From Flavobacteriales bacterium (GTDB lineage Bacteria > Bacteroidota > Bacteroidia > Flavobacteriales_D > Sanyastnellaceae): 64,000 nucleotides of DNA. The notes beneath the pieces are model-generated. The model made no database searches. It was not told the DNA's origin and saw only the letters and a program-made list of their open reading frames with translations. Positions 38,779 through 52,884 of the stretch are shown here, piece by piece (position 1 is the stretch's first letter; each line of letters opens with the position of its first letter). A program made the translations under genes and the position numbers. The stretch spans positions 1 to 64,000 of the forward strand of contig JAKVAX010000004.1 of the NCBI GenBank assembly GCA_022447625.1, given 5' to 3'.

Positions 38779-38900
38779 CCACAACTACACCGAAAAACGA
38801 TGTGTAGGATGATTCTTACAGTCGGGACAGGTAGATGCCCTACACTATCGGAAAAGGTGTTGAATTAACTTGGGTAAGCCATTACCTTCACTTTAGAACA

Positions 38901-39296
38901 ATGAACTATGTGAATTCTGTACTCTTGATCGACGATAACCCGAGCTGTAACTTTATTATGAGCGAGTTTATCAAACTGGCTGATGAGCGAATTGAAGTGC
39001 ATGTATCCGAGTCAGTCCAAGAGGCGCTAGAGAAACTGAATGATCCATTGATTTGCTTCCCAGAAGTAATCTATGTAGATCTCAATATGCCCGTTCAGAA
39101 CGGGTTCGAATTTATTGAAGCCTTTGAACAACGCTTCATGATCACCCATCCGGGAAGCAAGCTATTTATGTTGAGCAGTTCCTTGAGACCTGAGGATAAA
39201 GAGCGCGCACTTACATACCAAAGCGTGCAAGATTTCGTTAGTAAAAACGACATTGACACCTTTTTACAGAAAACTTTGCTTCGAGCTGTAGCCTAA
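38901..39296 (+). CDS. stand-alone receiver-domain response regulator
   Basis: The protein has 131 residues from ATG 38901-38903. The earlier in-frame ATG at 38835 would add 22 residues unlike any receiver start. Acidic pocket residues are in VLLIDDNPS, phospho-acceptor Asp60 in VIYVDLNMPVQNGFEF, Ser in MLSSSLRPED and Lys in DFVSKNDID. There is no output domain, so it acts by protein-protein contact, like CheY or Spo0F. It lies 120 bp upstream of the ECF sigma gene on the same strand, and a link to that system is an inference. Confidence 0.9.
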   Translation: MNYVNSVLLIDDNPSCNFIMSEFIKLADERIEVHVSESVQEALEKLNDPLICFPEVIYVDLNMPVQNGFEFIEAFEQRFMITHPGSKLFMLSSSLRPEDKERALTYQSVQDFVSKNDIDTFLQKTLLRAVA

Positions 39297-39416
39297 ATAC
39301 CTGTTTTCCAGTGTTGTATATATTGGGTGTTTCTGTTTTCCTAAAATTTCCTTAATTCGTTAGCCAGATAAGAGGCAACCGTTGTGGTTTGTCCTCGTCT
39401 AATTAATGTCTCGTTC

Positions 39417-39986
39417 ATGATAGATGATGAACTTCGGGAGCTAATCTTAGGATGTGTTCGTGGGAGCAGAAAGTCTCAGGAGGGCATCTATCGTAGATTG
39501 TACGGGACAATGATGGCCGTTTGTATGCGGTATACTAAGAACGTCGATCAGGCACACGATATTTTGCAGGAAGGCTTTCTAAAGGTATTCGCAAACATTG
39601 GAAAATACGGTTTCGAAGGCTCGTTTGAAGGCTGGGTGCGAAGAATCATGGTGAATACCGCCATTGATACTTTCCGAAAGAAGAGAACAGACTTCGTGTT
39701 ACTTGGGGAAGATCAGTCGATTGAAGATTACACTGAAGTCGCTGAAGATGATGATGAAGAAGCAGAATTTGAATTCACAGCTTCAGACGTGGTGGAAGCC
39801 ATGCAGCAGTTGACCCCAGCCTACCGCACCATCTTTAACCTCTACGTGTTTGAGAACCTTACGCACGTAGAGATCGCCGAGCGACTTGGAATTAGTGTCG
39901 GAACATCTAAATCCAACTATGCAAAAGCGAAAAGAAATTTGAAACGCATATTAACTAACGATTTCAGGAATCGCGATGACGGATAA
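39417..39986 (+). CDS. ECF-type RNA polymerase sigma factor
   Basis: The protein has 189 residues from ATG 39417-39419; a GTG 11 codons upstream is possible but less likely. Region 2 is YRRLYGTMMAVCMRYTKNVD, then QAHDILQEGFLKVFANIGKY and FEGSFEGWVRRIMVNTAIDT. An acidic linker (EDYTEVAEDDDEEAEFEF) precedes region 4 (LTPAYRTIFNLYVFENLTHV, then EIAERLGISVGTSKSNYAKA). It overlaps the following membrane-anchored PKD protein by 11 bp, the arrangement typical of an ECF sigma with its anti-sigma. The regulon is unknown; the downstream T9SS surface proteins are natural candidates. Confidence 0.92.
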   Translation: MIDDELRELILGCVRGSRKSQEGIYRRLYGTMMAVCMRYTKNVDQAHDILQEGFLKVFANIGKYGFEGSFEGWVRRIMVNTAIDTFRKKRTDFVLLGEDQSIEDYTEVAEDDDEEAEFEFTASDVVEAMQQLTPAYRTIFNLYVFENLTHVEIAERLGISVGTSKSNYAKAKRNLKRILTNDFRNRDDG

Positions 39987-41274
39987 GTTTGATGCCTTTG
40001 AGCATAGCATGAGGAACGTGCTCAAAGATTACGAAGTGCCTTTCAACGAGGCCAGTTGGGAAGAATTAAAAGGACAAATTCCAGGCGGGTCAGCTTGGAC
40101 TAATCCTTGGACGATTGCCGCGATCTTTGCAGGTCTATTAACCGTTGGCGCTACCTCATGGTATTTCCTCAGCTCTGACAACGGTACGATGGCGCAAGCA
40201 GCTAACCCTACAGATCTTGTAGTCAATAAAGATACATATGAAGGTATTCGCTCAAAAACGGAACAATTCCTTCTAGCTGTTGCTGATAATAGCGGTGATA
40301 TGATCTCTTTCGAAGACGCAGTTCTGGCGTCTGAAGAAGCGGCGAACGCTAATGATAGCAATAGTGCACAACTCGCCGCTATCAATACGACTTCAAACAC
40401 TACTCAACCAACAACTACTGAAGAGTATGAATCTTTGGTGGCAGCAGACGAAATGGAAGCTGCTGAAGAGGAAATCGTTGGAATCCCTGCAGAAGGAGAT
40501 AAGCCAGCAATTCCAATCTCTATCAGCACGCGCAAAGGATGTGTCGGTACTACAGTAGAATTCAACATCTCGCTTGAAAGCGAAGACGGTAACTACCTAT
40601 GGAACTTTGGTGATGGTAACTTCTCGAACCAACCAAACCCAACTCACACTTACCTCAAAGCAGGTACATACGACATTACACTCTCTGTGACTAGCAACGA
40701 CGACGGGGTGATTCGTACCAAGACGATGGATAACCTCATTGTCATTAACCCAACTCCTGAAGCAGATTTCGATTGGTCATTCGTTGATTCAACGTCTGGA
40801 ACACCGACGGTTCGCTTCAATAACCGTTCAGCTAGAGCGCAAGATTCAGAGTGGGTGATCGTTGATCTGATTTCTACGGATATCAATCCTACAGAAGCAA
40901 TCAACAAAAAAGGAGTGCACGTAATCGAACTTGTGGTGAGCAACGAATTCGGCTGTTCAGATACAAAAGCACGCACAATCTCTGTCAACGCAGATTACGC
41001 ATTGATGGCTCCTTCACAATTCTCTCCAGATGGAGATGGAGTTTTCGATAGCTTCATGCCTCGCGCCTTCATGGATGATGACATGAACTTCGATCTCAAG
41101 ATCTACAGTGGTGATGAGGTTGTGTTCCACACAACAGACGCAGACAACCCTTGGAAAGGTCAACTTCCAGACGGATCTATTGCTCAGAAAGGCAAGGCCT
41201 ACAGTTGGGTGGCGATCGTGAAAGACCTGAATGGTGAGAAATATTACAGTGGTACAATTACAATTACGCCTTAA
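39976..41274 (+). CDS. membrane-anchored PKD protein with T9SS type-B-like C-terminus; putative anti-sigma
   Basis: The protein has 432 residues. The first ~38 are cytoplasmic and acidic/amphipathic (DAFEHSMRNVLKDYEVPF, NEASWEELKGQIPG). One transmembrane helix follows (TIAAIFAGLLTVGATSWYFL, about 44-63), with no cleavable signal. A disordered acidic linker leads to a PKD domain (about 185-260; YLWNFGDGNFSNQPNPTHTY) and a second Ig-like segment. The last ~90 residues (APSQFSPDGDGVFDSF to YYSGTITITP) align with type B sorting domains (PNAFTPDNDGINEVF). It overlaps the ECF sigma gene. An inner-membrane anchor combined with a secretion-like tail is odd; an anti-sigma that senses the T9SS or the envelope is my inference. 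Confidence 0.75.
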   Translation: MTDKFDAFEHSMRNVLKDYEVPFNEASWEELKGQIPGGSAWTNPWTIAAIFAGLLTVGATSWYFLSSDNGTMAQAANPTDLVVNKDTYEGIRSKTEQFLLAVADNSGDMISFEDAVLASEEAANANDSNSAQLAAINTTSNTTQPTTTEEYESLVAADEMEAAEEEIVGIPAEGDKPAIPISISTRKGCVGTTVEFNISLESEDGNYLWNFGDGNFSNQPNPTHTYLKAGTYDITLSVTSNDDGVIRTKTMDNLIVINPTPEADFDWSFVDSTSGTPTVRFNNRSARAQDSEWVIVDLISTDINPTEAINKKGVHVIELVVSNEFGCSDTKARTISVNADYALMAPSQFSPDGDGVFDSFMPRAFMDDDMNFDLKIYSGDEVVFHTTDADNPWKGQLPDGSIAQKGKAYSWVAIVKDLNGEKYYSGTITITP

Positions 41275-41302
41275 CCAAAATTGTAAATAATCATGTTGAG
41301 AG

Positions 41303-41334
41303 AAGGCTTTAACCTAGCGGTTAGAGCCTTTTTT
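41303..41334 (+). terminator. intrinsic terminator after the PKD/anti-sigma candidate gene
   Basis: A 12-bp stem, AAGGCTTTAACC paired with GGTTAGAGCCTT (one G-T pair) around a TAGC loop, is followed by T's. It separates the sigma operon from the giant T9SS genes. Confidence 0.85.
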
Positions 41335-41368
41335 CGTAGTTTTGCACAATTGTTAATAACCTTTGCCA

Positions 41369-44300
41369 ATGCCCTTGGGATTCCTCGTATTTAGGAAGCA
41401 TTTCCGATACGCTGCGGTCAGGCTGCTATGGATTTGTTTTGTGCTGTTGCCTTCCACTATGTGGGCGACCATAGATCCCGTGTCCAGTACTGACTGTTTC
41501 TCATGCAACGGCTCGGCATCCGTCTCAACCAACTTCACAGGCGAAGTTACCTACGAATGGTACAATGGGCTAGGTGTTCTCTTGGGGCTCGACCAAAACA
41601 CACTTGGAAACACTTCGCTCTTCAATCTTTGTCCTGGAGTATATCAAGTGCAATATACGAATGGTACTGACTCCGCTATAGAATGGTTCTCTATTGCTGT
41701 ACCAGGAGCAGATGCCGGTCAACCAGATGCAGTTTCTTACTGCGCTGAAACCGGAAACTACGATCTGTTCGCTGCATTGCTTGGAACACCTCAGGCCGGA
41801 GGGGATTGGTCTGATCCATTAGGACAGCCGCACTCAGGAACCTTTGATTCGGCAGCTGATGTTCCTGGATTCTACCAGTATGTCATCAATGCTGGAGCTT
41901 GCACGGTTACCTCGGGTATCGACGTCACGCTAATTCAGAATGCTAACGCAGGTTTATCGGCAACCTATCTCATTTGTGAGACTTATAACGAATTCTTCCT
42001 TACAGACGTTCTCGCAGGAGCTCCTGATCTTGGAGGCACTTGGTTTGACAGTAACCAGAATGCATTTGATGGTTTCTATGATCCAGATGTTGATGTGACG
42101 GGCCTATTCACTTATATGATTGACACGGTGTTGGGATGCCCTCCAGTATTCTCGACACTCTTTGTGATCGAAAATGCGCTCCCTGATCCAGGTATTGACA
42201 CCGAACTGGCTGTTTGTCCGAATGCGACGCCATTTGATATGACTGTCCAATTAAACGGAACTCCTGACCCCGGAGGAGTATGGTACGATGAAAATAATGA
42301 CCCGGTAGGACCTCTTTATGACCCCGCTGTGCTCGATGAGGGAGTCTATAATTACGTAGTGCAAGGACTAACCCCTTGTCCAATTCAAGAATCTTTCCTT
42401 ACCGTAACATATACACAAGGAATTGACGCAGGAGAAGATGGAAACCTGGCTGTTTGTGTCAATAATGGAGCTGCTGATTTGTTCAACTCTATTGGGGGGA
42501 TCCCAACAGCAACTGGAAATTGGACTGACCCTTCAAATGCTCCTTCTGATGGAATGGTAGACCCTGAAACTGCATTAGAAGGAACCTACACCTACACAGT
42601 GAACGCCGTTGGATGTCAGCCACAAAGCTCAACCGTGACCTTCACTGTTGAACAGCTCCCGATCGCAGGAACAGGGCAAACGATGTCTTTCTGTGAAAAT
42701 GGAAGTCCGGTTGATCTTGACGGATTATTGTCTGCAGATGCTCAAGCAACAGGGGAGTGGATGATTGGAGGTCAACCAGTGAATGGAAGTTTGGTTGTTG
42801 AAGGCGGACAAACCTACCAACCTATCTATACGGTAGCTAGTGTTCTTTGTCCTGACGATGCAGCATCATTTGAAATTGTAGTGGATGAGTTGCCAAATGC
42901 CGGTCCTGATAATGACCTTTTCACCTGTTCGAACGCATTAGCAATTGACATCGCCGTTCTAATGTCACCCGATCAAAGTTTCACTTCTGAATGGATAGAC
43001 CCAATGGGTAATCCAACCAATAACGTAGTTGACCCTGCGGTTGATCTGCCAGGGCAGTACACACTGATTTCTCATAGTGAAAACTCTTGTCCAGATGATC
43101 AGGCCACGCTGAATGTGATAATATCGGATCCAGCATTTGAGAATGGCTTTGACACCTTCGAAGATTGTACCATCGGCCAGCAGTATGACTTGAACGATGT
43201 CCTTCCAGAAAATATTCCTGATAATGGTGCTTGGAGTCAAGATGGACAAAACGTTCCTCAGCTTGTTGATGGGAATGAATTAAGCTCAGGAGTCTACCTG
43301 TACACCATTAATAATCCGCAGGGCTGTTTACCTTCGGTATTTACCTTTGATCTTATCTTAGTTGAGCCACTTAACGCTGGCGAAGGAGTCGATATAGTAA
43401 TATGCTCAACATCTCCGGAATTTACCCTGGATGATCAGCTTCAGAATGATGTCGACTTGGGTTATTGGGAGTACAATGGCGAAGGATTAGGGAGCACCAT
43501 CATAGATCCATCAAACTCAACTGATGGCGTTTATACTTATGTAGTTCCTGGCATTGGTCCTTGTCCTGCAGATAGCGCTCAAATTGTTCTTGATATTCAA
43601 GAAGGTTTAGCTTTCACGGCCGGCCCAGATTTGATAGTTTGTGAAGGAGATGACAACGTCTTCTTAGGCGCAGGTACCTGCGATAATTGCGAGTTTGATT
43701 GGACCAATGGAGGTCTTTTGAATGACGCTAGCGCGGAATCGCCTCTTTTCCTTGTTCCGGAAGTACAAAGCACCGAGACATATCAGTTCTTTGTCAGTGT
43801 CGACAATGGTGTATGTGAGGTACAGGATGAACTGATTGTGACGGTTCATCCAACCCCAGAATTGATTCTTGTAGGAGATGAGATCCTTTGTGCTGGAGAC
43901 GAAGGGACATGGACTGTTGCAGGAGCCAACACGTATGAATGGGTCTCCTTGAATAACCAAGTTCAATCTACGGATGACAACTACACTGGGCTGCTTTATC
44001 TCGATGAGTCGATCTCAGTTACCGGAACGTCATTAGATGGATGCGCAACCGAAGTTGTCTTGAATGTTATGGTAAACCCATTGCCCGAGCCAATCTTCGA
44101 TTTGGATGACCAGAATGCATGCGGTCAAGTAGTAGTGCAGTTGTATTTGCCTGAGAGTGATGGCAATAACTACTGGTATGAGGTGGATGGAGTGATATAC
44201 GATGAAGAGGTGAACTCACTCGTCATAGTGAATGAAGGGGGGTATGATGTCACCTTGTTCGCGGAATCACCAGAAGGATGCCTGAATTCATTCACGAATG

Positions 44301-44863
44301 ATAATGTGATCACTGTTTATGGTTATCCAGAAAGTAGCTGGTACTTCGTCAATGATCAACTCGGTATTTTATCCACTGAAGTTGAATTCGTGAACACCAG
44401 TATCGACGCAACTCAATTTGAGTGGCAATTTGATGCCTTGGGAACATCGACAGAAGAGTCTCCAATTCTCAGCCTTCCAGCAATTGCAGACCAATCTTAT
44501 GATATATGCTTAGTGGCTGAAAACCAGTATGGTTGCCCAGACACTTTGTGCCGCGAGATTTATCTCGGAGGTGAACTCATAGTGTATGTTCCAAATGCCT
44601 TCACCCCTGATAACGATGGGATTAATGAAGTGTTCTTGCCATCAGTTCTAGGTCATGATCCAAGTGAATTCGAGTTCAGTGTGTTCAATCGCTGGGGTGA
44701 GCTCATCTTCCGATCAGAAGATGAACAGCAAGGATGGAATGGATCCTTCAATAACGGGCAGTACTACGTCCAAGATGGCGTATACACTTGGGTACTTTCA
44801 GTCAAAGATGCCTACACAGCAGAACTCAAGAAGTTCTCAGGTCACGTAACTATCATGCGTTAG
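41369..44863 (+). CDS. giant surface protein with eight Cys-containing modules and T9SS type B sorting domain
   Basis: The protein has 1164 residues from ATG 41369-41371; a TTG two codons upstream is unlikely. The signal segment is LLWICFVLLPSTMWA. About eight modules of ~75-85 residues run from residue ~115 to ~750, each with a pattern of Cys, a DL/DM strand, G-x-W-x-D/x-P, 'G-x-Y-x-Y-x-V' and a final Cys-Pro. Ig-like stretches and a PKD-like segment (FEWQFDALGTSTEESPILSL) follow. The C-terminal ~90 residues (VYVPNAFTPDNDGINEVFLP, FNRWGELIFRSED, ending SGHVTIMR) are a T9SS type B sorting domain. It is likely a surface adhesin or gliding-related protein. Confidence 0.9.
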   Translation: MPLGFLVFRKHFRYAAVRLLWICFVLLPSTMWATIDPVSSTDCFSCNGSASVSTNFTGEVTYEWYNGLGVLLGLDQNTLGNTSLFNLCPGVYQVQYTNGTDSAIEWFSIAVPGADAGQPDAVSYCAETGNYDLFAALLGTPQAGGDWSDPLGQPHSGTFDSAADVPGFYQYVINAGACTVTSGIDVTLIQNANAGLSATYLICETYNEFFLTDVLAGAPDLGGTWFDSNQNAFDGFYDPDVDVTGLFTYMIDTVLGCPPVFSTLFVIENALPDPGIDTELAVCPNATPFDMTVQLNGTPDPGGVWYDENNDPVGPLYDPAVLDEGVYNYVVQGLTPCPIQESFLTVTYTQGIDAGEDGNLAVCVNNGAADLFNSIGGIPTATGNWTDPSNAPSDGMVDPETALEGTYTYTVNAVGCQPQSSTVTFTVEQLPIAGTGQTMSFCENGSPVDLDGLLSADAQATGEWMIGGQPVNGSLVVEGGQTYQPIYTVASVLCPDDAASFEIVVDELPNAGPDNDLFTCSNALAIDIAVLMSPDQSFTSEWIDPMGNPTNNVVDPAVDLPGQYTLISHSENSCPDDQATLNVIISDPAFENGFDTFEDCTIGQQYDLNDVLPENIPDNGAWSQDGQNVPQLVDGNELSSGVYLYTINNPQGCLPSVFTFDLILVEPLNAGEGVDIVICSTSPEFTLDDQLQNDVDLGYWEYNGEGLGSTIIDPSNSTDGVYTYVVPGIGPCPADSAQIVLDIQEGLAFTAGPDLIVCEGDDNVFLGAGTCDNCEFDWTNGGLLNDASAESPLFLVPEVQSTETYQFFVSVDNGVCEVQDELIVTVHPTPELILVGDEILCAGDEGTWTVAGANTYEWVSLNNQVQSTDDNYTGLLYLDESISVTGTSLDGCATEVVLNVMVNPLPEPIFDLDDQNACGQVVVQLYLPESDGNNYWYEVDGVIYDEEVNSLVIVNEGGYDVTLFAESPEGCLNSFTNDNVITVYGYPESSWYFVNDQLGILSTEVEFVNTSIDATQFEWQFDALGTSTEESPILSLPAIADQSYDICLVAENQYGCPDTLCREIYLGGELIVYVPNAFTPDNDGINEVFLPSVLGHDPSEFEFSVFNRWGELIFRSEDEQQGWNGSFNNGQYYVQDGVYTWVLSVKDAYTAELKKFSGHVTIMR
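43726..43738 (+). repeat. dispersed 13-mer copy (CGCTAGCGCGGAA)
   Basis: Exact G-variant on the plus strand, inside the 1164-residue surface protein gene, read as Ala-Ser-Ala-Glu. Confidence 0.8.
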
Positions 44864-44974
44864 AATTCCAATTCAAACATTGAAATAGGGCGCTTTTCAA
44901 CTCGAAATGTTGAAGCTTCGTGCCCATTTGTGAACTTCTCCCCAAGGTCATTTCTTATTTTCGCGGCTCAACCT

Positions 44975-47900
44975 ATGGAACCTATGAGGAGAATATTAAT
45001 CGGATGCTTAGGATTGTTAGCAATGACCTTATCAATCGGGGCGTTCGCACAGGTGAATGTAGTCATGGACAATGGTACATTCTTCTCTTGTGCTGGAGTA
45101 TTTCTAGATAGTGGAGGTCAAGGTGGTCCCGGTTATCAGAATAATGAATATTTCACGACAACCATTTGCCCCGAAAACCAAGGGGATGTCATTACGGTTG
45201 ACTTCATCACATTCCAACTTGATCAAAGCGGAGTTCAGAGCACTTGGGATTACATGGCCATCTTCGATGGTGACAATGTAACTGAAGCATCGCTCGGTGT
45301 TTACACAGGAGATGATCTTGAAGGGTTATTCGTAACAGCAACATCACAAAACACCTCGGGGTGTTTGACCTTCGTATTTCAATCAAACGAAGAAGGAACA
45401 GGAAACTTTGGTGGATCCATTACTTGCGGCACACCATGTGACCGCCCAACTGCTGAAGCAACTTACGACGCGCCTATAACAAAACGAATCTGTATTGGCG
45501 ATGTCATCAACTTTGATGGCTCAGGCTCTTTTGCAGCTCCTGGTTTCGAAATCGTTGAATATCTCTGGGACTTTGCTGATGGTACAACAGACGATAGTGG
45601 TCCTGTGGTGTCACATGCTTGGGATGAGCCTGGGGAATATGTCGTTGAGCTTTTCCTGATAGATGATAATGGGTGTGCATCTACCAACCGTGTGAGTCTT
45701 CAGCTATTGGTGGCTACACCACCTTTGTGGTCGCCGTTCCCAAATGACACTACGCTTTGTTTAGGAGAAGACCTTTGTTTGGAAGCCTTCCCGAATGATT
45801 ACGAGCTAACCTGGAGCGGACCAGAAGAGGCATACAGCAATTCAGACAATACTGTGCTTGAAGACAATGTTGGGGAGTGTTTCGTTTCAGAAATTGAAGT
45901 AGGAGGGTTTTCTCCAGGACAGACATTGACCAACGTCAATGACTTGTTCGGAATCGACGTTTCCATTGAACACAGCTGGTTGTTCGATCTTGTGATCTCC
46001 ATAGAATGTCCGACAGGGCAGACAGTGGTTCTTCACCAGCAAATGGAGCAACCGATTGGAGCTGACGTAGCTTCCAATGGTTCTGACCTCGGTGTACCGG
46101 ATACAGAATTCTGGGATTACAGCTGGACTCCAGATGCGACACAAGGTACTTGGTCACAAGTTGCTACTGACCTCGCAGGAGGTGAAGCGCTTCCAGAGGG
46201 AGATTACAATGCTCTCGAGAACCTAGACCAATTGGTAGGTTGTGACTTGAACGGTACATGGTCTATCGAAATTTGTGACCTCTGGGGAGGTGACAATGGG
46301 GAGTTGAACGAATGGGGATTGAACTTTAATCCTGCGATTATCCCTGAAGTCACCGAGTTTACTCCAGATATTGGAGCTGGTTCTGATAGTTCATTCTGGA
46401 GTCTTGACGCCACAGGATTAGATCTCTTCAATGAAGATCCAGAAGGAAACTCGCTATGCCTCACGCCACTTCAGGAAGGAAACTGGCCGATTACCTTCAC
46501 CGTAATCAATAACCACGGTTGCCAAACAGACAGTGTCATTACAGTTTCAGCTTATCAAGCTCTGCTTGCTGATGCGGGTGAAGACTTTTCTTGGTGTGGT
46601 GAAGGAACAGCTATGAGCGGTGGCCTTGACGGCCTTCCAACACCTGAATGTTCTGCAGACGCAGGTAATTATACCTACTGTTACACCAACGGGGCACCAC
46701 AATCATTTACCTACTGCCCTGACAATCCAGGAGATGGTATTGCTTTCATGGACATTACCTTCAATGCTGGAACAGTCGAGAATTTCTTCGATGAATTCTG
46801 GGTATATGATGGAGACAATACTGGAGCACCGCTGCTTGCAGGCCCGATTTATGGAGACCTCTCAGGACTGCAGTTTATCGCAACAAACCCAAGCGGATGT
46901 ATCACAATCGAAGTCACTCCTGATGGCAGTGTTGACTGTGCAGGCGGTTCTCAAGTAGAGTGGAACTTTGATGTGGGATGTAATCTAGGTGGACCGCAGT
47001 ATGATTACATCTGGGCACCAGCAACAGGTCTTTCTGATCCGAACATTTCAAACCCAGCGGTTGACGAAGTGTTTGAACCAACCACTTACGAGCTCACAGT
47101 ATTCCCGACAGGGCATCCTGATTGTGCTTCAACTGATCTTGTGACGGTATACCCGACTTACTCATATGAAGTGACCTTTATACAACCAGTTTGCTTTGAG
47201 CCAACGGGTGAAATCAACGTATTCATCGATGAGACAACAGGAGATGGACCATGGGATGTATACCTATACCAAGCAGGGCTGGCCATAGATTCATTGATCT
47301 CAACGGGAGGTGACTCAACATTTGATGGGTTACTTCCTAGTGATTACATCGTTATCATTGGCGAAGAAACATGTACCTATGAGGAAGAGATAAATATGTC
47401 TACACCTCCGGTGATTACTTTGACACCAACTCCGGCGGATACAACCATCTGTTACACAGGCGTCGCCTCGCTTTCAGCAGTACCTAGCTTCGACACAGGG
47501 GATATGGAATACTTCTGGAATAACGGAGCAGTTGGACAAGAGATTCAAGTGAATCCTCTACTGGATGAGTCGTACACAGTCTACGCCACGTTCGGCGGAG
47601 CCTGTTTCACTGATACAGTGCAAGTAAACGTAGAAGTACTTGATCCAATCACGCTCGATATTACCGCGGGGAATACAATCTGTCAAGGCGATTCGATCTT
47701 CATAGGAGTAGATAGCGCCACGGGCGTTTTGGAACCGTACCTGCATACTTGGACTTGGGATGCAGGTGGAGAAATCATTACCGATGGAGTCTTCCTTTAT
47801 CCGGAGTACACAGCAAACTGGTGCTGTACAACCACGGATCAATGTGAAACACCAGCCGTGACACAGTGTATTGAAATCGCTATTTCGGATCCAATTGATC

Positions 47901-48685
47901 CTTCATTTGAAGCGGATACGCTCGGAGGTTGTGTACCAACCTTGGTGAACTTTCAAGGATTAGCTGAGAACCCTGAGCATATTTTTGAAGCAGTTTGGGA
48001 CTTCGGCGATGGCGGAATCTCTACAAACCCGCACTCGTCTGCGCATACGTACACCACGCAAGGCTCTTATGATATCACTTATACTGTGATTTCGAATGAT
48101 GGTTGTTTCTTCGAATCAACAGTTGAGGATATGATTACCATCTTCAACTGGCCGATTGCCGGATTCAATATGGAGCCACAGACCGCAGTTCTCCCAAATA
48201 CCGGAATCCAGTTTGAGAACTACTCGTTAGGAAGCGATGTGTACACATGGGTGATGAATAACACGGACTCGTTAAACGATGAAGACCCGTTCTACGAATT
48301 CCCTGATGCGGCTGGAACGTACTCAGTAACGCTTTATGTTGAGAACAGCTGGGGGTGTGCTGATAGCGTATCTCGTTCGGGGTTCGTTGTGGATGAATTC
48401 GTGATGTATGTTCCGAATGCCTTTACACCTGATTTCGATGGCATCAATGACATCTTCCGATTCGAAGGAATTGATGTAGATAAAGACGACTTCAAATTGC
48501 AGATCTTCGACCGTTGGGGAGAGAAGGTATTTGAGACCTTTGATTTCGAACAAGGTTGGAACGGATCTTACAATGGTGGAGAGTACTTTGTGCCAGATGG
48601 AATGTACATTTGGCGTATTGAAACACGTTCGTTGACCTCACTTGAGCGCAAAGAATTGATCGGTCATGTGCTGATCATGCGATAG
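44975..48685 (+). CDS. T9SS type B surface protein with CUB, PKD and P-domains (paralog 1)
   Basis: The protein has 1236 residues from ATG 44975-44977 (another ATG three codons on). The earlier start adds no signal-like sequence. A signal peptide ends near SIGAFAQ. In order: a CUB-like domain (FLDSGGQGGPGYQNNEYF to GNFGGSITC), PKD (EYLWDFADGTTDDSGPVVSH), a proprotein-convertase P-domain (ISIECPTGQTVVLHQQM to IEICDLWGGDNGELNEWGLN), a second CUB-like domain (NFFDEFWVYDGDNTGAPLLA), Ig-like segments, another PKD (AVWDFGDGGISTNPHSS), and a type B sorting domain (YVPNAFTPDFDGINDIFRFE, FDRWGEKVFET). It is homologous along its length to the protein at 49165-52884. It is secreted and surface-attached by inference. 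Confidence 0.92.
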   Translation: MEPMRRILIGCLGLLAMTLSIGAFAQVNVVMDNGTFFSCAGVFLDSGGQGGPGYQNNEYFTTTICPENQGDVITVDFITFQLDQSGVQSTWDYMAIFDGDNVTEASLGVYTGDDLEGLFVTATSQNTSGCLTFVFQSNEEGTGNFGGSITCGTPCDRPTAEATYDAPITKRICIGDVINFDGSGSFAAPGFEIVEYLWDFADGTTDDSGPVVSHAWDEPGEYVVELFLIDDNGCASTNRVSLQLLVATPPLWSPFPNDTTLCLGEDLCLEAFPNDYELTWSGPEEAYSNSDNTVLEDNVGECFVSEIEVGGFSPGQTLTNVNDLFGIDVSIEHSWLFDLVISIECPTGQTVVLHQQMEQPIGADVASNGSDLGVPDTEFWDYSWTPDATQGTWSQVATDLAGGEALPEGDYNALENLDQLVGCDLNGTWSIEICDLWGGDNGELNEWGLNFNPAIIPEVTEFTPDIGAGSDSSFWSLDATGLDLFNEDPEGNSLCLTPLQEGNWPITFTVINNHGCQTDSVITVSAYQALLADAGEDFSWCGEGTAMSGGLDGLPTPECSADAGNYTYCYTNGAPQSFTYCPDNPGDGIAFMDITFNAGTVENFFDEFWVYDGDNTGAPLLAGPIYGDLSGLQFIATNPSGCITIEVTPDGSVDCAGGSQVEWNFDVGCNLGGPQYDYIWAPATGLSDPNISNPAVDEVFEPTTYELTVFPTGHPDCASTDLVTVYPTYSYEVTFIQPVCFEPTGEINVFIDETTGDGPWDVYLYQAGLAIDSLISTGGDSTFDGLLPSDYIVIIGEETCTYEEEINMSTPPVITLTPTPADTTICYTGVASLSAVPSFDTGDMEYFWNNGAVGQEIQVNPLLDESYTVYATFGGACFTDTVQVNVEVLDPITLDITAGNTICQGDSIFIGVDSATGVLEPYLHTWTWDAGGEIITDGVFLYPEYTANWCCTTTDQCETPAVTQCIEIAISDPIDPSFEADTLGGCVPTLVNFQGLAENPEHIFEAVWDFGDGGISTNPHSSAHTYTTQGSYDITYTVISNDGCFFESTVEDMITIFNWPIAGFNMEPQTAVLPNTGIQFENYSLGSDVYTWVMNNTDSLNDEDPFYEFPDAAGTYSVTLYVENSWGCADSVSRSGFVVDEFVMYVPNAFTPDFDGINDIFRFEGIDVDKDDFKLQIFDRWGEKVFETFDFEQGWNGSYNGGEYFVPDGMYIWRIETRSLTSLERKELIGHVLIMR

Positions 48686-48751: not shown

Positions 48752-49168
48752 ATGGGAAAGATTTTACTTCTTGTTACTTCATTATTTTGTTCCGCTGGGC
48801 TTTCAGCACAGCAAGATCATGATTGGTTGATTGCTCTTTTTGGAGAGGAAGACTACGCGACTGTTGCAGAAAATGCTCCAGAGAAGATTGAGTACTACAC
48901 GTTTGCGGATGAGCACGGTTATCTCGTTCAAATGGCTGAAGGCAAAGACCTATCAGGTTATCCTGATGCTCTAACCATTGCTCCAAAGAAAGATGGTATG
49001 GTCCCATTATCAGTTGATCTTATTCTATCGGATGAATTCCACCCGAGCCTGTATCGTTTCAAGACAACAATGAACGATACGCATTGGTACCGCGTGGGAG
49101 ACACAGACTACGTTATTACAGTCTTACCGTTAACATCTGTCCAGAATAAATTCAATTCAGAGGAATGA
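48752..49168 (+). CDS. small secreted protein of unknown function between the two paralogs
   Basis: The protein has 138 residues with a signal peptide (KILLLVTSLFCSAGLSAQQ). The mature ~118 residues are mixed alpha/beta, without cysteines, and rich in acidic and aromatic residues (DHDWLIALFGEEDYATVAEN, EKIEYYTFADEHGYLVQMAE, HWYRVGDTDYVITVLPL). I recognise no domain. Its stop codon overlaps the start of the second large paralog by 4 bp (ATGA), so the two are translated together. A periplasmic partner or chaperone of the large protein is possible, but there is no direct evidence. Confidence 0.7.
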   Translation: MGKILLLVTSLFCSAGLSAQQDHDWLIALFGEEDYATVAENAPEKIEYYTFADEHGYLVQMAEGKDLSGYPDALTIAPKKDGMVPLSVDLILSDEFHPSLYRFKTTMNDTHWYRVGDTDYVITVLPLTSVQNKFNSEE

Positions 49169-52100
49169 GAAATTCTCTAGCTCGAATCCTGACTTTCACC
49201 CTTATCACGTTCGTCGGCATGACCTCTCAGGCACAGACGAATGTTGTCATGTCCAATGGTGAGTTCTTCTCGTGTGGAGGAGTCTTCCTTGACAGCGGTG
49301 GACAAGGAGGCCCGGGATACTCCAATGGTGAATACTTTACATGTACCATTTGTCCTGAAACAGAAGGAGATGTTGTGACCATTGACTTCATCACATTTGA
49401 CCTCGATCAATCTGGTGCAGAAAACACATGGGACTCTATGGCCATCTTTGATGGTGACAATACGGGTGAATCTACACTGGGTTCCTACACAGGTACGGCA
49501 CTGCAAGGTCTCTTCGTTACAGCGACACCTCAGAACACCTCGGGTTGTTTGACTTTCGTATTCCAATCGAACGGAACAGGAACAGGGAACTTTGGGGGTT
49601 CTATCACGTGTGAAACGCCCTGTGATCGCCCTACTGCTGAAGCTACATACGATGCTCCGGATAACAAGCGTATTTGTGTTGGAGACGTGATTAACTTTGA
49701 TGGAAGTGCGTCGACGGCCGCGGATGGATTCGTAATAGAAGAATGGCTATGGGACTTCGCAGACGGAACCTCAGACACTAGTGGCCCTATCGTTTCTCAC
49801 TCTTGGGATGAGCCAGGAGAGTACATCGTTGAGCTTTATCTTGTAGATGATAACGGTTGTGCTTCAACGAACAGAATCAGCCTCCAAGTTCTCGTAGCGA
49901 CCTATCCTAGCTGGGATCCTTTCCCGAATGACACTACGCTATGCCTAGGAGAACAGCTTTGTTTGGAGGCTTTCCCGAATGATTATGAGGTCACTTGGAG
50001 TGGTCCTGATCTTTCATACGCTAACGCGGAAAATATTGAACTCCTCGATAACGTAGGGGAGTGTTTCGTTTCAGAAATCGACGTTACAGGATTTGCCCCT
50101 GGCCAGACGCTCACTAATATCAATGACCTTATGACCATTGATATTTCTATTGAGCACAGTTGGTTGTTCGACTTGGTTGTGACGGTTACTTGCCCTACCG
50201 GGGAATCGGTAATCATGCACCAGCAGATGCAACAGCCTGATGGCACAGATGTAGGTGCTAACGGAACAGACCTTGGTGTTCCAGATACGGAATTCTGGGA
50301 TTACTCATGGTCTGCGGATGCCACAGCAGGTACATGGTCTCAGGTAGCTACAGACCTTGGTTTCGGAGGCGGACTGCCAGAAGATAACTACAACTCTCTC
50401 GAACCAATGGAGCAATTGGTCGGCTGTGATTTGAACGGTATTTGGTCAATTGAGATTTGTGACCTCTGGGGAGGTGACAACGGAGAGCTGAATAGCTGGG
50501 GATTGAACTTCAACCCGGCCATTATTCCTGACGTAACAGAATTTACGCCAGAAATCGGACTTGCAAGTGATAGCTCGTACTGGACCTATGACGATACTAA
50601 CTTGGACATCATTTCTGCGCCAGACGATGGGAACTCTGTTTGTTTCCAGCCATTAGCGGAAGGAGATTACCCATTCACATACACCGTTACCAATAACCAC
50701 GGATGTTCGCACGATTCAACAATCGTTGTGACAGCTGAGTTAGCAGGACAAGCAGATGCAGGTCCGGATATCACCTTCTGTGGAGAGGCAACGCAACTTT
50801 CAGGTGGACTTGATGGACAGCCATCATCGTCATGTAACAATGACGGAGGAAATTACACTTACTGCTATTCGAACGGTGGGATGCCTTCGTTCACTTATTG
50901 TCCGGATAACCCAGGAGATGGAATCACTTTCATTGACATTACCTTCAACGCTGGATCCGTAGAGAATTTTTTCGACGAGTTCTGGGTATATGATGGTGAT
51001 AATACTGGAGCACCAATTCTGGCAGGTCCGATTTACGGAGACCTCACAGGATTGCAGTTTGTAGCAACAAACCCAACAGGATGTCTAACCATTCAGGTAA
51101 CGCCCGATGGCAGTGTTGACTGTGCAGGTGGTTCACAAACAGAATGGGACTACGACGTAGGCTGTTCTGCGGGTGGACCTCAGTACGAGTACTCATGGTC
51201 TCCGATTGAAGGACTTTCTGATCCAAATAGCCCAACTCCATTTGTAGAAAGCATTTCAGGTGAAACAACTTATACGTTGACAACCTTCCCAACAGGACAC
51301 CCTGACTGTGCGTCTACTGATGAAGTAACAGTATTCCCAGCATTCGCATTCAACGTTGAATCTTTCGATCCGAGCTGCTTCGGAAACGATGCAGTGATCT
51401 CGGTAGATATCGATCCAGACTCAGGAACAGGTCCTTGGACGATTGAATTCTCTGAAGATGGGGTCTTGCAAGAGACAATAAACTCAGAAGGCGGTCTGAC
51501 AGAATTTGAAGATCTATTCCCTGGAAACTACGCGGTAAGCGTAAGTGATGGTGGATGTACCTACGACAATGACATTGTCATTAATTCGCCACCACCATTG
51601 ATGTTCGAATTATCGAATGATACAACGATCTGTGTTGATGGAATGGCGACCCTTTCAGCTACTTCAGACATGGATATCGATGACTCATGGCAATACACAT
51701 GGGACGGTGGCCTTGGATTAGGAAACCCTGTGTTCGCTGAACCGTTGGAGACAACCACATACAATGTATTTGCTACTGACGATGCGGGTTGTGATTCAGA
51801 TCCAATCGCGGTGACAGTTGAAGTGCGTGATAGCATCACAGTTGAGATCAGTGGAACAGAATTGATTTGTGGTGGAACAGAAGCTTCATTACAAGTCGAT
51901 GATACACAGGGAGGTCTCGGAGCTCCATATGACTACATATGGCAGTTCAATGGGGTAGACGTAGCCAACGGTGAAGATATTAGCGTTCAGCAGTTCCAAA
52001 CAGGAACATACTGCGTATTCGCTACAGATGGATGTGAATCTCCTGCCGGAGAGGCTTGTCTTGATGTAGTAGTTGAAACACCATTGAACGTAGCTTTCAC

Positions 52101-52884
52101 GGCAGATACGCTCGTTGGTTGTTTCCCAGCTGATATTCAGTTCACGAACTTGATTGACGCTACTGCTTACGAATCGGCATTGTGGGATTTTGAAGATGGA
52201 AGTTTCTCAACAGAGGCAGATCCATTGCACCAGTTTGAATTGCCAGGGTTCTACGACGTGTCGTTGACCTTGACAACAGCGCCAGGATGTGTGTACTCCA
52301 CGGTATACCCGAACTACATCACAGTGTACGATAATCCAACTGCTGGATACCACGCACAGCCACAGCCAACAACGATGCCTGATACAGAGATCGAATTCTA
52401 CGATTACTCCGTTGGTGACGTCGTAGACTGGTATTGGGTGTTTGATACCTTGAATGTTCAAGGAACATCAACGCTTCCAGATCCTGTGTTCCAATTCCCA
52501 ATGTCAACTGGAGGTAACTACCCAGTGACACTGACAATTACAGATTCTAATGGATGTACTGATCAGATTACACGTTGGATCGTAATCAATGATCTACTCA
52601 ACATCTACGTACCTAATTCATTCACACCTAACAACGATGGAGTGAACGATATCTTCCTAGTAGAAGGAAGCGATATCGATCCAGATCGTTTCGAGCTAAA
52701 AGTATTTAGCCGTTGGGGAGACAAGGTCTTTGAATCTACTGATATGACTGTTCCTTGGAACGGTAATTACCAGGGTGGAGGATACTTCTCTCAGAATGAT
52801 ATGTACATCTGGCAATTGGTGGTGCACTCGCTGTCAACAAGTGAGCGTTTCGAATTAAGCGGAACAGTGACTATCCTTCGCTAA
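49165..52884 (+). CDS. T9SS type B surface protein with CUB, PKD and P-domains (paralog 2)
   Basis: This 1239-residue paralog of the protein at 44975-48685 has the same domain order. The signal peptide is FTLITFVGMTSQAQ. The CUB-like domain is FLDSGGQGGPGYSNGEYF to GNFGGSITC and the PKD is EEWLWDFADGTSDTSGPIVS. The P-domain runs from VTVTCPTGESVIMHQQM to IEICDLWGGDNGELNSWGLN, followed by a second CUB-like domain (NFFDEFWVYDGDNTGAPILA). Then come Ig-like segments, a PKD (ALWDFEDGSFSTEADPLHQF) and a type B sorting domain (YVPNSFTPNNDGVNDIFLVE, FSRWGDKVFESTD). Similarity is strongest over the first ~730 residues and the tail, and weak in between. Its 3' end overlaps the convergent LAS-peptidase candidate by 4 bp. 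Confidence 0.92.
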   Translation: MRNSLARILTFTLITFVGMTSQAQTNVVMSNGEFFSCGGVFLDSGGQGGPGYSNGEYFTCTICPETEGDVVTIDFITFDLDQSGAENTWDSMAIFDGDNTGESTLGSYTGTALQGLFVTATPQNTSGCLTFVFQSNGTGTGNFGGSITCETPCDRPTAEATYDAPDNKRICVGDVINFDGSASTAADGFVIEEWLWDFADGTSDTSGPIVSHSWDEPGEYIVELYLVDDNGCASTNRISLQVLVATYPSWDPFPNDTTLCLGEQLCLEAFPNDYEVTWSGPDLSYANAENIELLDNVGECFVSEIDVTGFAPGQTLTNINDLMTIDISIEHSWLFDLVVTVTCPTGESVIMHQQMQQPDGTDVGANGTDLGVPDTEFWDYSWSADATAGTWSQVATDLGFGGGLPEDNYNSLEPMEQLVGCDLNGIWSIEICDLWGGDNGELNSWGLNFNPAIIPDVTEFTPEIGLASDSSYWTYDDTNLDIISAPDDGNSVCFQPLAEGDYPFTYTVTNNHGCSHDSTIVVTAELAGQADAGPDITFCGEATQLSGGLDGQPSSSCNNDGGNYTYCYSNGGMPSFTYCPDNPGDGITFIDITFNAGSVENFFDEFWVYDGDNTGAPILAGPIYGDLTGLQFVATNPTGCLTIQVTPDGSVDCAGGSQTEWDYDVGCSAGGPQYEYSWSPIEGLSDPNSPTPFVESISGETTYTLTTFPTGHPDCASTDEVTVFPAFAFNVESFDPSCFGNDAVISVDIDPDSGTGPWTIEFSEDGVLQETINSEGGLTEFEDLFPGNYAVSVSDGGCTYDNDIVINSPPPLMFELSNDTTICVDGMATLSATSDMDIDDSWQYTWDGGLGLGNPVFAEPLETTTYNVFATDDAGCDSDPIAVTVEVRDSITVEISGTELICGGTEASLQVDDTQGGLGAPYDYIWQFNGVDVANGEDISVQQFQTGTYCVFATDGCESPAGEACLDVVVETPLNVAFTADTLVGCFPADIQFTNLIDATAYESALWDFEDGSFSTEADPLHQFELPGFYDVSLTLTTAPGCVYSTVYPNYITVYDNPTAGYHAQPQPTTMPDTEIEFYDYSVGDVVDWYWVFDTLNVQGTSTLPDPVFQFPMSTGGNYPVTLTITDSNGCTDQITRWIVINDLLNIYVPNSFTPNNDGVNDIFLVEGSDIDPDRFELKVFSRWGDKVFESTDMTVPWNGNYQGGGYFSQNDMYIWQLVVHSLSTSERFELSGTVTILR

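Follow-up and report, generated by a model that had tools for sequence, protein, structure and literature searches.

Dma1 and Dma2 of Bacteroides thetaiotaomicron are described as dual membrane-spanning anti-sigma factors with Das (ECF21) sigma factors, in which an N-terminal anti-sigma domain is followed by a TM helix, a long disordered tether, and a C-terminal beta-barrel (PMC13088901). The partner protein studied here shows the same order, namely a putative N-terminal anti-sigma domain, a TM helix, a disordered tether, and a C-terminal domain, and it likewise adjoins an ECF sigma factor. As far as Dma1 and Dma2 are described in that source, the partner differs from them in that its C terminus is PKD-Ig-CHU_C-like, with no beta-barrel, and in that its own promoter is common to a small RNA and a DUF5684 protein, with type B cargo often adjacent. 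The proposed link to the Dma proteins is drawn through N-terminal homology to barrel-type partners found here. In P. gingivalis, PorA-PorY-PorX-SigP regulates the T9SS, and PorA, a T9SS C-terminal-domain protein that influences an ECF sigma factor, is the nearest precedent (PMC7712824). PorA is described there as a separate surface protein acting via a two-component system, whereas here a signal-like domain lies inside a putative anti-sigma factor. The tail of the partner resembles type B cargo signals (CHU_C, TIGR04131; PorP/SprF shuttles; PMC12618676, PMC9143113) in its FSPxGDG loop, WxG, and final strands. Unlike type B cargo, it lacks RWG, is apparently anchored in the inner membrane, and has a borderline profile score in its own genome. 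E. coli sigma-E with RseA and the small RNAs RybB and MicA is an autoregulated envelope-type sigma system, and the present pair is like it in predicted autoregulation and a promoter-linked small RNA; the anti-sigma factor and the sensor here differ. We know of no described way in which Bacteroidota sense T9SS traffic outside PorXY-SigP, and a search of mostly open-access literature found no description of an anti-sigma factor with a T9SS signal-like tail.

The pair lies in the window, the whole 64,000-nucleotide stretch of Flavobacteriales DNA that was analyzed. The reading that we favor, with modest confidence, is that it is an autoregulated ECF sigma/anti-sigma pair of Dma-like layout whose secretion-incompetent type B tail senses T9SS cargo traffic. 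This makes it a testable candidate T9SS-traffic sensor, with an N-terminal profile that matches 223 of the 245 sampled genomes of the order. The features of the operon are as follows.

39374..39400, + strand: promoter GGCAACC-N15-CGTCT, ending 16 nt 5' of the sigma start (conserved motif)
39417..39986, + strand: ECF sigma factor gene, 189 aa (ATG 39417, TAA 39984-39986; Pfam and NCBIfam)
39976..39986, + strand: overlap of the sigma and partner genes, 11 bp (ORF coordinates)
39976..41274, + strand: putative anti-sigma partner gene, 432 aa (ATG 39976; Pfam, alignment, AlphaFold2)
39976..40104, + strand: putative N-terminal (cytoplasmic) anti-sigma domain, residues 1-43, with invariant W28 (alignments, N-terminal homology)
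40105..40170, + strand: TM helix, residues 44-65 (AlphaFold2 with low pLDDT, hydrophobic sequence)
40171..40473, + strand: disordered tether, residues 66-166 (pLDDT < 50; nonsynonymous differences)
40474..40749, + strand: PKD domain, residues 167-258 (Pfam, AlphaFold2)
40750..40995, + strand: second Ig/PKD-like domain, residues 259-340 (AlphaFold2)
40996..41271, + strand: CHU_C-like tail without RWG, residues 341-432 (Pfam, alignment, AlphaFold2)

The original prediction of an ECF sigma factor overlapping its partner by 11 bp agrees with both the ORFs and the domain matches. The sigma factor matches Sigma70_r2 (52.5 bits) and Sigma70_r4_2 (55.6 bits) in Pfam and the sigma70-ECF superfamily in NCBIfam (104 bits against a cut-off of 42.9), and it has sigma-70 regions 2 and 4 only, as defines an ECF sigma factor. 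It is 48 to 82% identical to 14 relatives and about 41 to 48% identical to the sigma factors paired with barrel-type partners. A sigma gene stands directly 5' of the partner in 27 of the 28 relatives (26 by the first search, with L020 added later) and was not found at L031, and the two genes overlap by 4 to 26 nt in 18 of the 28. The ortholog survey thus finds the pair and its architecture recurring across the order Flavobacteriales. Chance does not explain the pair, given this recurrence and given that the window and G002 differ by 1 nonsynonymous change across some 220 tail sites. Directly 5' of the sigma operon lies a single-domain response regulator gene (window 38835-39296).

The AlphaFold2 model of the partner (29 sequences in the input, mean pLDDT 68) contains helices at residues 6-17 and 25-33, a helix at 44-65 suited to the membrane, disorder at 66-166, two beta domains within 167-337, and then the tail, which is predicted to be four-stranded. 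The beta domains and the tail are modeled well (pLDDT mostly 76-93; 78-93 by block in the tail), but confidence is low, with block pLDDT about 44-55, for both the N-terminal helices and the TM helix. The PKD domain is a 62-bit match to PKD_4, and a PDB fold search with the model returned Ig/PKD-type folds, with a whole-model TM <= 0.31 among the matches listed, and was uninformative on the tail. An uncleaved inner-membrane anchor had been proposed, and 43 hydrophilic residues do precede the TM helix, itself modeled with low pLDDT; this N terminus, its kinship with the partners of other sigma factors, and the AlphaFold2 model argue against a cleavable signal peptide and support the anchor. Three residues are fully invariant in the 29-row partner alignment: W28 in the N terminus, and the tail residues W393 and G395. 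Read over their full length, the 28 relatives broadly share the layout, with L023 missing the PKD domain and keeping the tail, and the ten sampled for domains have, like the window partner, PKD and CHU_C-like domains and no C-terminal beta-barrel. Among the parts compared between the window and G002, the tether carries the most nonsynonymous differences (16 in about 234 sites).

The operon appears to be transcribed by its own sigma factor. GGCAAC-N15..17-CGT is found 5' of 35 of 35 unique sigma genes (N16 in 31), with CGT 7-37 nt ahead of the start codon, the motif having been derived from those same 35 upstream regions. Because the promoter stands ahead of the sigma gene, we infer that this sigma factor reads GGCAACC-N15-CGTCT. 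In 60 genomes, the strict form has 121 matches versus 16 for the reversed pattern, with at least one match in 51 genomes. The 117 unique strict sites in the loci collected divide into 32 at sigma genes (31 by script and L064 reassigned by reading), 31 at DUF5684 genes (assigned by Pfam for the own-genome copy and by motif for the rest), 29 at the small RNA, and 25 others, which include sister sites from close genomes. Apart from the sigma gene, no coding companion occurs under the promoter as regularly as the DUF5684 integral membrane protein (about 140-180 aa). With the promoter named, a reporter is ready and a gene set is predicted. Its two regular companions in the own genome are located as follows.

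G000:C23:248884-248910: DUF5684 promoter site with the gene downstream (31 sites among relatives)
G000:C9:23439-23564: small RNA (L105, L299), also at L216, L156, L158, L159, L186, L190, and others

Where a promoter site lacks an ORF, what follows is in most cases a hairpin, then a core (GGTTTCAA, 4-8 variable nt, TTGCAGG), and then a terminator hairpin; together these make up a conserved small RNA, about 95 nt long, immediately 3' of the sigma-type promoter. All 22 of the 22 aligned sequences contain the core, by which they had been selected. The hairpin arms covary between sequences, as judged by eye and not by a pair-count tool, and for 10 of 12 terminator pairs, at least one sequence has both paired bases changed. 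When 10 small-RNA loci were searched against Rfam at E <= 1, only three weak matches resulted, all elsewhere in the loci. The small-RNA model matches 112 of 245 genomes at E <= 0.001, a count that is too high because the matches in family f9, weak ones to model R1, have the promoter and core at 0 of 15 loci checked, so that f9 was rejected as a carrier; matches from the other families have both in 5 of 5. All 51 own-family genomes match, G024 only at 8e-4, and the RNA occurs as two nearby copies in L186, in L279 and, going by the model, also in G057 and G217. Complements of the 11-nt core fall mostly within ORFs, and no recurrent start-site target emerged among the part of the matches inspected. 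The pair therefore also brings a conserved small RNA without an Rfam match that is linked to an envelope-type sigma factor; we know of no small RNA so linked from Bacteroidota.

The remaining strict sites are more varied. Complete type B cargo genes follow at L283 (15 nt after CGTC), L288 (22 nt), and L286 (229 nt), and a PorP_SprF gene follows at L284 (148 nt), these loci (L283, L286, L288/L284) representing three genomes. Type A genes (L287, L290) and EI24/CysZ-like, PqiA-like, and TPR proteins are also found under the promoter. L163 precedes a small-RNA model match, L287 overlaps a weak one, and L289, which is cut by the contig end, was excluded from type B. In the own genome, L295, a type B cargo gene whose RWG is intact, is 36 nt 3' of GGCAACC-N16-CGTC, with a spacer one base longer than usual, a length shared by 1 of 35 sigma promoters. 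For comparison, CHU_C matches above the cut-off number 49 in this genome, roughly 1-2% of its genes (gene number estimated). L294 was considered as a PorP gene and set aside, as it has no PorP_SprF match and a weak small-RNA model match lies between promoter and gene.

In F. psychrophilum, the T9SS gene PorU is under an ECF-type promoter, and the SM6 promoters include those of a sigma/anti-sigma pair and of T9SS genes (PMC9723704). The pair THC0290_1774/1773 and the small RNA Rfp11 of that paper are possible counterparts of the genes described here. Control of T9SS core genes by the present sigma factor was rejected, the promoter motif being found at 0 of 25 PorU loci (25 of 29 were examined, L115 and L133 among the 25 being cut at the start, and nearly all lie outside the window's family). 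A CGTTTTTTT-like box was seen in five of the six PorU upstream regions viewed, and the f9 PorU loci L118, L120, L121, L124, and L125 carry an upstream AT-rich block that ends in such a box, which is possibly the promoter of another ECF sigma factor.

This gene set bears on the main rival to T9SS sensing, a general envelope sensor, in which the tail would be an Ig-like domain from a cargo gene reused for sensing general periplasmic or outer-membrane stress, with the T9SS not sensed. We regard this as rather unlikely, although the genes regularly linked to the promoter (sigma, DUF5684, small RNA) include no T9SS machinery that we saw, PorU among it, and the EI24/CysZ- and PqiA-like membrane proteins also suit a general sensor. 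Against it stands the fact that in a few genomes the promoter precedes type B cargo genes and, in one case, a shuttle gene, and the neighborhood of the pair is a second point against it. The downstream features in the window are as follows.

41297..41336, + strand: rho-independent terminator ending the operon, 18 pairs (z -6.5)
41337..41344, + strand: TAGTTTTG, a match to the Bacteroidota sigma-A box TAnnTTTG, 5' of the cargo gene (sequence)
41363..44863, + strand: giant T9SS type B cargo gene, the conserved neighbor (CHU_C 57.7 bits; relatives adjoin the pair)
44930..48685, + strand: second giant type B cargo gene (CHU_C 63.9 bits)
49165..52884, + strand: third giant type B cargo gene (CHU_C 53.2 bits)

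Among pairs followed by over 4 kb of sequence, type B cargo lies directly 3' of 12 of 20 signal-tailed pairs versus 1 of 37 others (Fisher 2e-6, which takes no account of shared descent). Along most of its length, the window's cargo neighbor shares 29-43% identity with those of L331, L332, L339, and L335. It had been suggested that the sigma factor controls the giant cargo genes just downstream; in the window, this is unsupported because the terminator and the sigma-A-like box intervene, and no copy of the sigma promoter was found ahead of these genes. The consensus of the Bacteroidota sigma-A box is given as TAnnTTTG (PMC9723704). The window has such a box and a terminator-like hairpin between partner and cargo; of the main-group gaps, 7 of 9 share the box and 8 of 9 the hairpin, so that in the main group the neighboring cargo is more likely a functional partner than a target, as judged from these intergenic elements. 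The second lineage of CHU_C-tailed anti-sigma factors (L366, L385, L390) also has giant type B cargo directly 3' in 3 of 3, with a mechanical cargo ORF start at -5 to +22 nt; its gaps have the terminator-like hairpin in 0 of 3 and the TAnnTTTG box in 0 of 3, and its sigma genes are without the GGCAACC promoter.

Two further elements were noticed among the cargo genes. A palindromic ACAATTGT or CAACACGTGTTG, followed by TAATAAC/GATAAC, stands just 5' of the cargo gene in the window (41345-41361) and in L331, L332, L335, and L339, and thus occurs in several genera. Between the second and third cargo genes, the window encodes a 138-aa exported-looking protein (48752-49168) with no Pfam match.

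We compared the tail with real type B signals. Against CHU_C, the T9SS type B signal, the partner tail scores 24.6 bits (cut-off 27; E 2.7e-5), and in the own-genome scan it is borderline at 26.8 bits (27.1 with neighbors), which makes it the weakest of the 49 own-genome matches marked over the cut-off. TIGR04131 has no match in the partner, and CHU_C is above the cut-off in 8 of 10 sampled relatives. The alignment comprised 57 anti-sigma tails (53 unique) and 24 cargo signals, of which 20 came from the own genome (30 CHU_C loci taken, 10 left out for having no tail by motif) and four were L283, L286, L288, and L295. The W of WxG is present in 23 of 24 cargo signals and 53 of 53 unique anti-sigma tails, the P of FxP in 8 of 24 and 48 of 53, and the G of the final strand in 52 of 53 tails. 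This near invariance speaks against the general envelope sensor, whereas the loss of the FSPNGDG part or of most of the tail domain in some family members speaks for it.

The pattern at RWG is the reverse. Its W is present in 22 of 24 cargo signals versus 0 of 53 unique tails and its R in 22 of 24 versus 7 of 53, RWG is absent from all five further tails from the Flavobacteriaceae-like family f9 (0/5), and in the alignment column where the cargo ends, R occurs in 20 of 24 cargo signals versus 12 of 53 tails. The original observation that the tail resembles a type B signal and misses RWGExxF therefore extends to a conserved feature of the family. Five conserved motifs of a type B signal are each reported to be needed for secretion in F. 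johnsoniae, and RWG, in our reading of that source, belongs to one of them (PMC12618676). Given the W counts, the tail has the appearance of a secretion-dead copy of a type B signal. The conservation pattern as a whole marks it as homologous to CHU_C and subject to a constraint of its own, the RWG segment having been lost. The idea that each tail was captured from, or is cognate to, its neighboring cargo was rejected, since the own cargo is not specifically similar (rank of own cargo among 13, per tail: 11, 6, 3, 11, 7, 3, 1, 10, 11, 3, 2, 2, 1). A PDB sequence search with the tail gave nothing convincing (best E 1.1); a cargo signal, unlike the anti-sigma tail, matches the GhpA C terminus in such a search.

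These counts weigh on a second alternative, that the tail is truly translocated, so that the protein spans both membranes with its signal domain at the surface and its other end tethered to the inner membrane. The order of parts, as described for the Dma proteins (PMC13088901), would suit this arrangement, about 100 disordered residues could by our estimate span the periplasm, and the window's giant cargo genes often carry PKD domains as the partner does. The loss of the W of RWG in 53 of 53 tails, the scarcity of the terminal R, and the reported need for each conserved type B motif nevertheless make translocation improbable.

Several features fit cargo-traffic sensing by the tail: how the parts are ordered, a signal that has lost RWG but kept the rest, the linked cargo, and the promoter at cargo and shuttle genes in a few genomes. 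Against it count the 0 of 25 PorU loci, the small number of genomes in which type B cargo or shuttle genes are promoter-linked, the decayed tails of L340-L342, the lack of specific similarity between tail and neighboring cargo, and the low model confidence of the TM helix and N terminus. We infer sigma binding, outer-membrane reach, ligand, proteolysis, and small-RNA action in the following scheme. With the tether, the tail could extend as far as the outer membrane, and there its signal-like domain may engage a reader of type B signals, either the PorP/SprF shuttle or the translocon; alternatively, it may be displaced from that reader when cargo is abundant or secretion stalls. Release of the tail would lead to proteolysis or a conformational change that frees the sigma factor. 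From GGCAACC-N15-CGTCT, the free sigma factor would then transcribe its own operon, the DUF5684 membrane protein, and the small RNA, a possible repressor of mRNAs; a few genomes would add type B cargo genes and a shuttle gene to this set. More tentatively, and with somewhat less than even confidence, we put forward a surveillance pathway of Bacteroidota that arose at least twice, in which the secretion-dead tail would measure cargo traffic by competing with real cargo at the outer membrane and free the sigma factor for a RybB/MicA-like small RNA, DUF5684, and, in some lineages, cargo and shuttle genes. A worn-down export tag used as a sensor suggests that cells may monitor the secretion of their own surface proteins and answer with a dedicated gene set.

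To place the pair among its kin, the first 70 partner residues were used as a query, and 30 of 60 genomes matched, the own genome included; one of these matches, L038, was rejected as a relative. The N-terminal profile has no match in 13 of 51 same-family genomes, and among the matches listed, the frames are mostly of about 400-480 aa. From a sigma scan of genomes, the best 80 of 462 loci were taken, of which 76 have a partner ORF and 70 a complete one (L331 is the same contig as G001, and L333, from Cryomorpha ignava, the same as G050). The tail profile finds a tail in 25 of the 70 complete partners and none in 45. The sigma promoter is present at 20 of the 25 signal-tailed pairs (absent at L337, L338, L366, L385, and L390) and at 5 of the 45 others, namely L371, L395, and the Cryomorphaceae-like L340-L342, whose tails have decayed past the reach of the tail profile; the association (Fisher 1e-8) ignores descent, the profile was built partly from the same tails, and some of these loci come from genomes already sampled above.

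Many of the other partners end like outer-membrane barrels, OMP_b-brl being found in 8 of 9 sampled, with 5 over the cut-off. Of 48 partners outside the signal-tailed class, 6 of them truncated at contig ends, the window-type N-terminal profile matches 47 (E <= 0.01), and it matches 0 of 380 shuffles, which supports the predicted sigma/anti-sigma pairing. That the partner is no anti-sigma factor, the overlap being incidental and the protein an inner-membrane scaffold, is very improbable, for although residues 1-43 have no cysteine and hence no zinc-binding anti-sigma motif (HxxxCxxC), the N terminus is homologous to partners of related sigma factors, barrel-type included, and pairing with a sigma gene is order-wide, with frequent overlap.

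On the sigma tree, the signal-tailed label requires two changes, versus a shuffled mean of 21.5, and these are forced by well-supported branches. The main group has 26 rows, its own node being weak (80/55), and L366, L385, and L390 form a separate clade. With several long branches in this tree, the simplest reading is that the signal-tailed design was gained twice.
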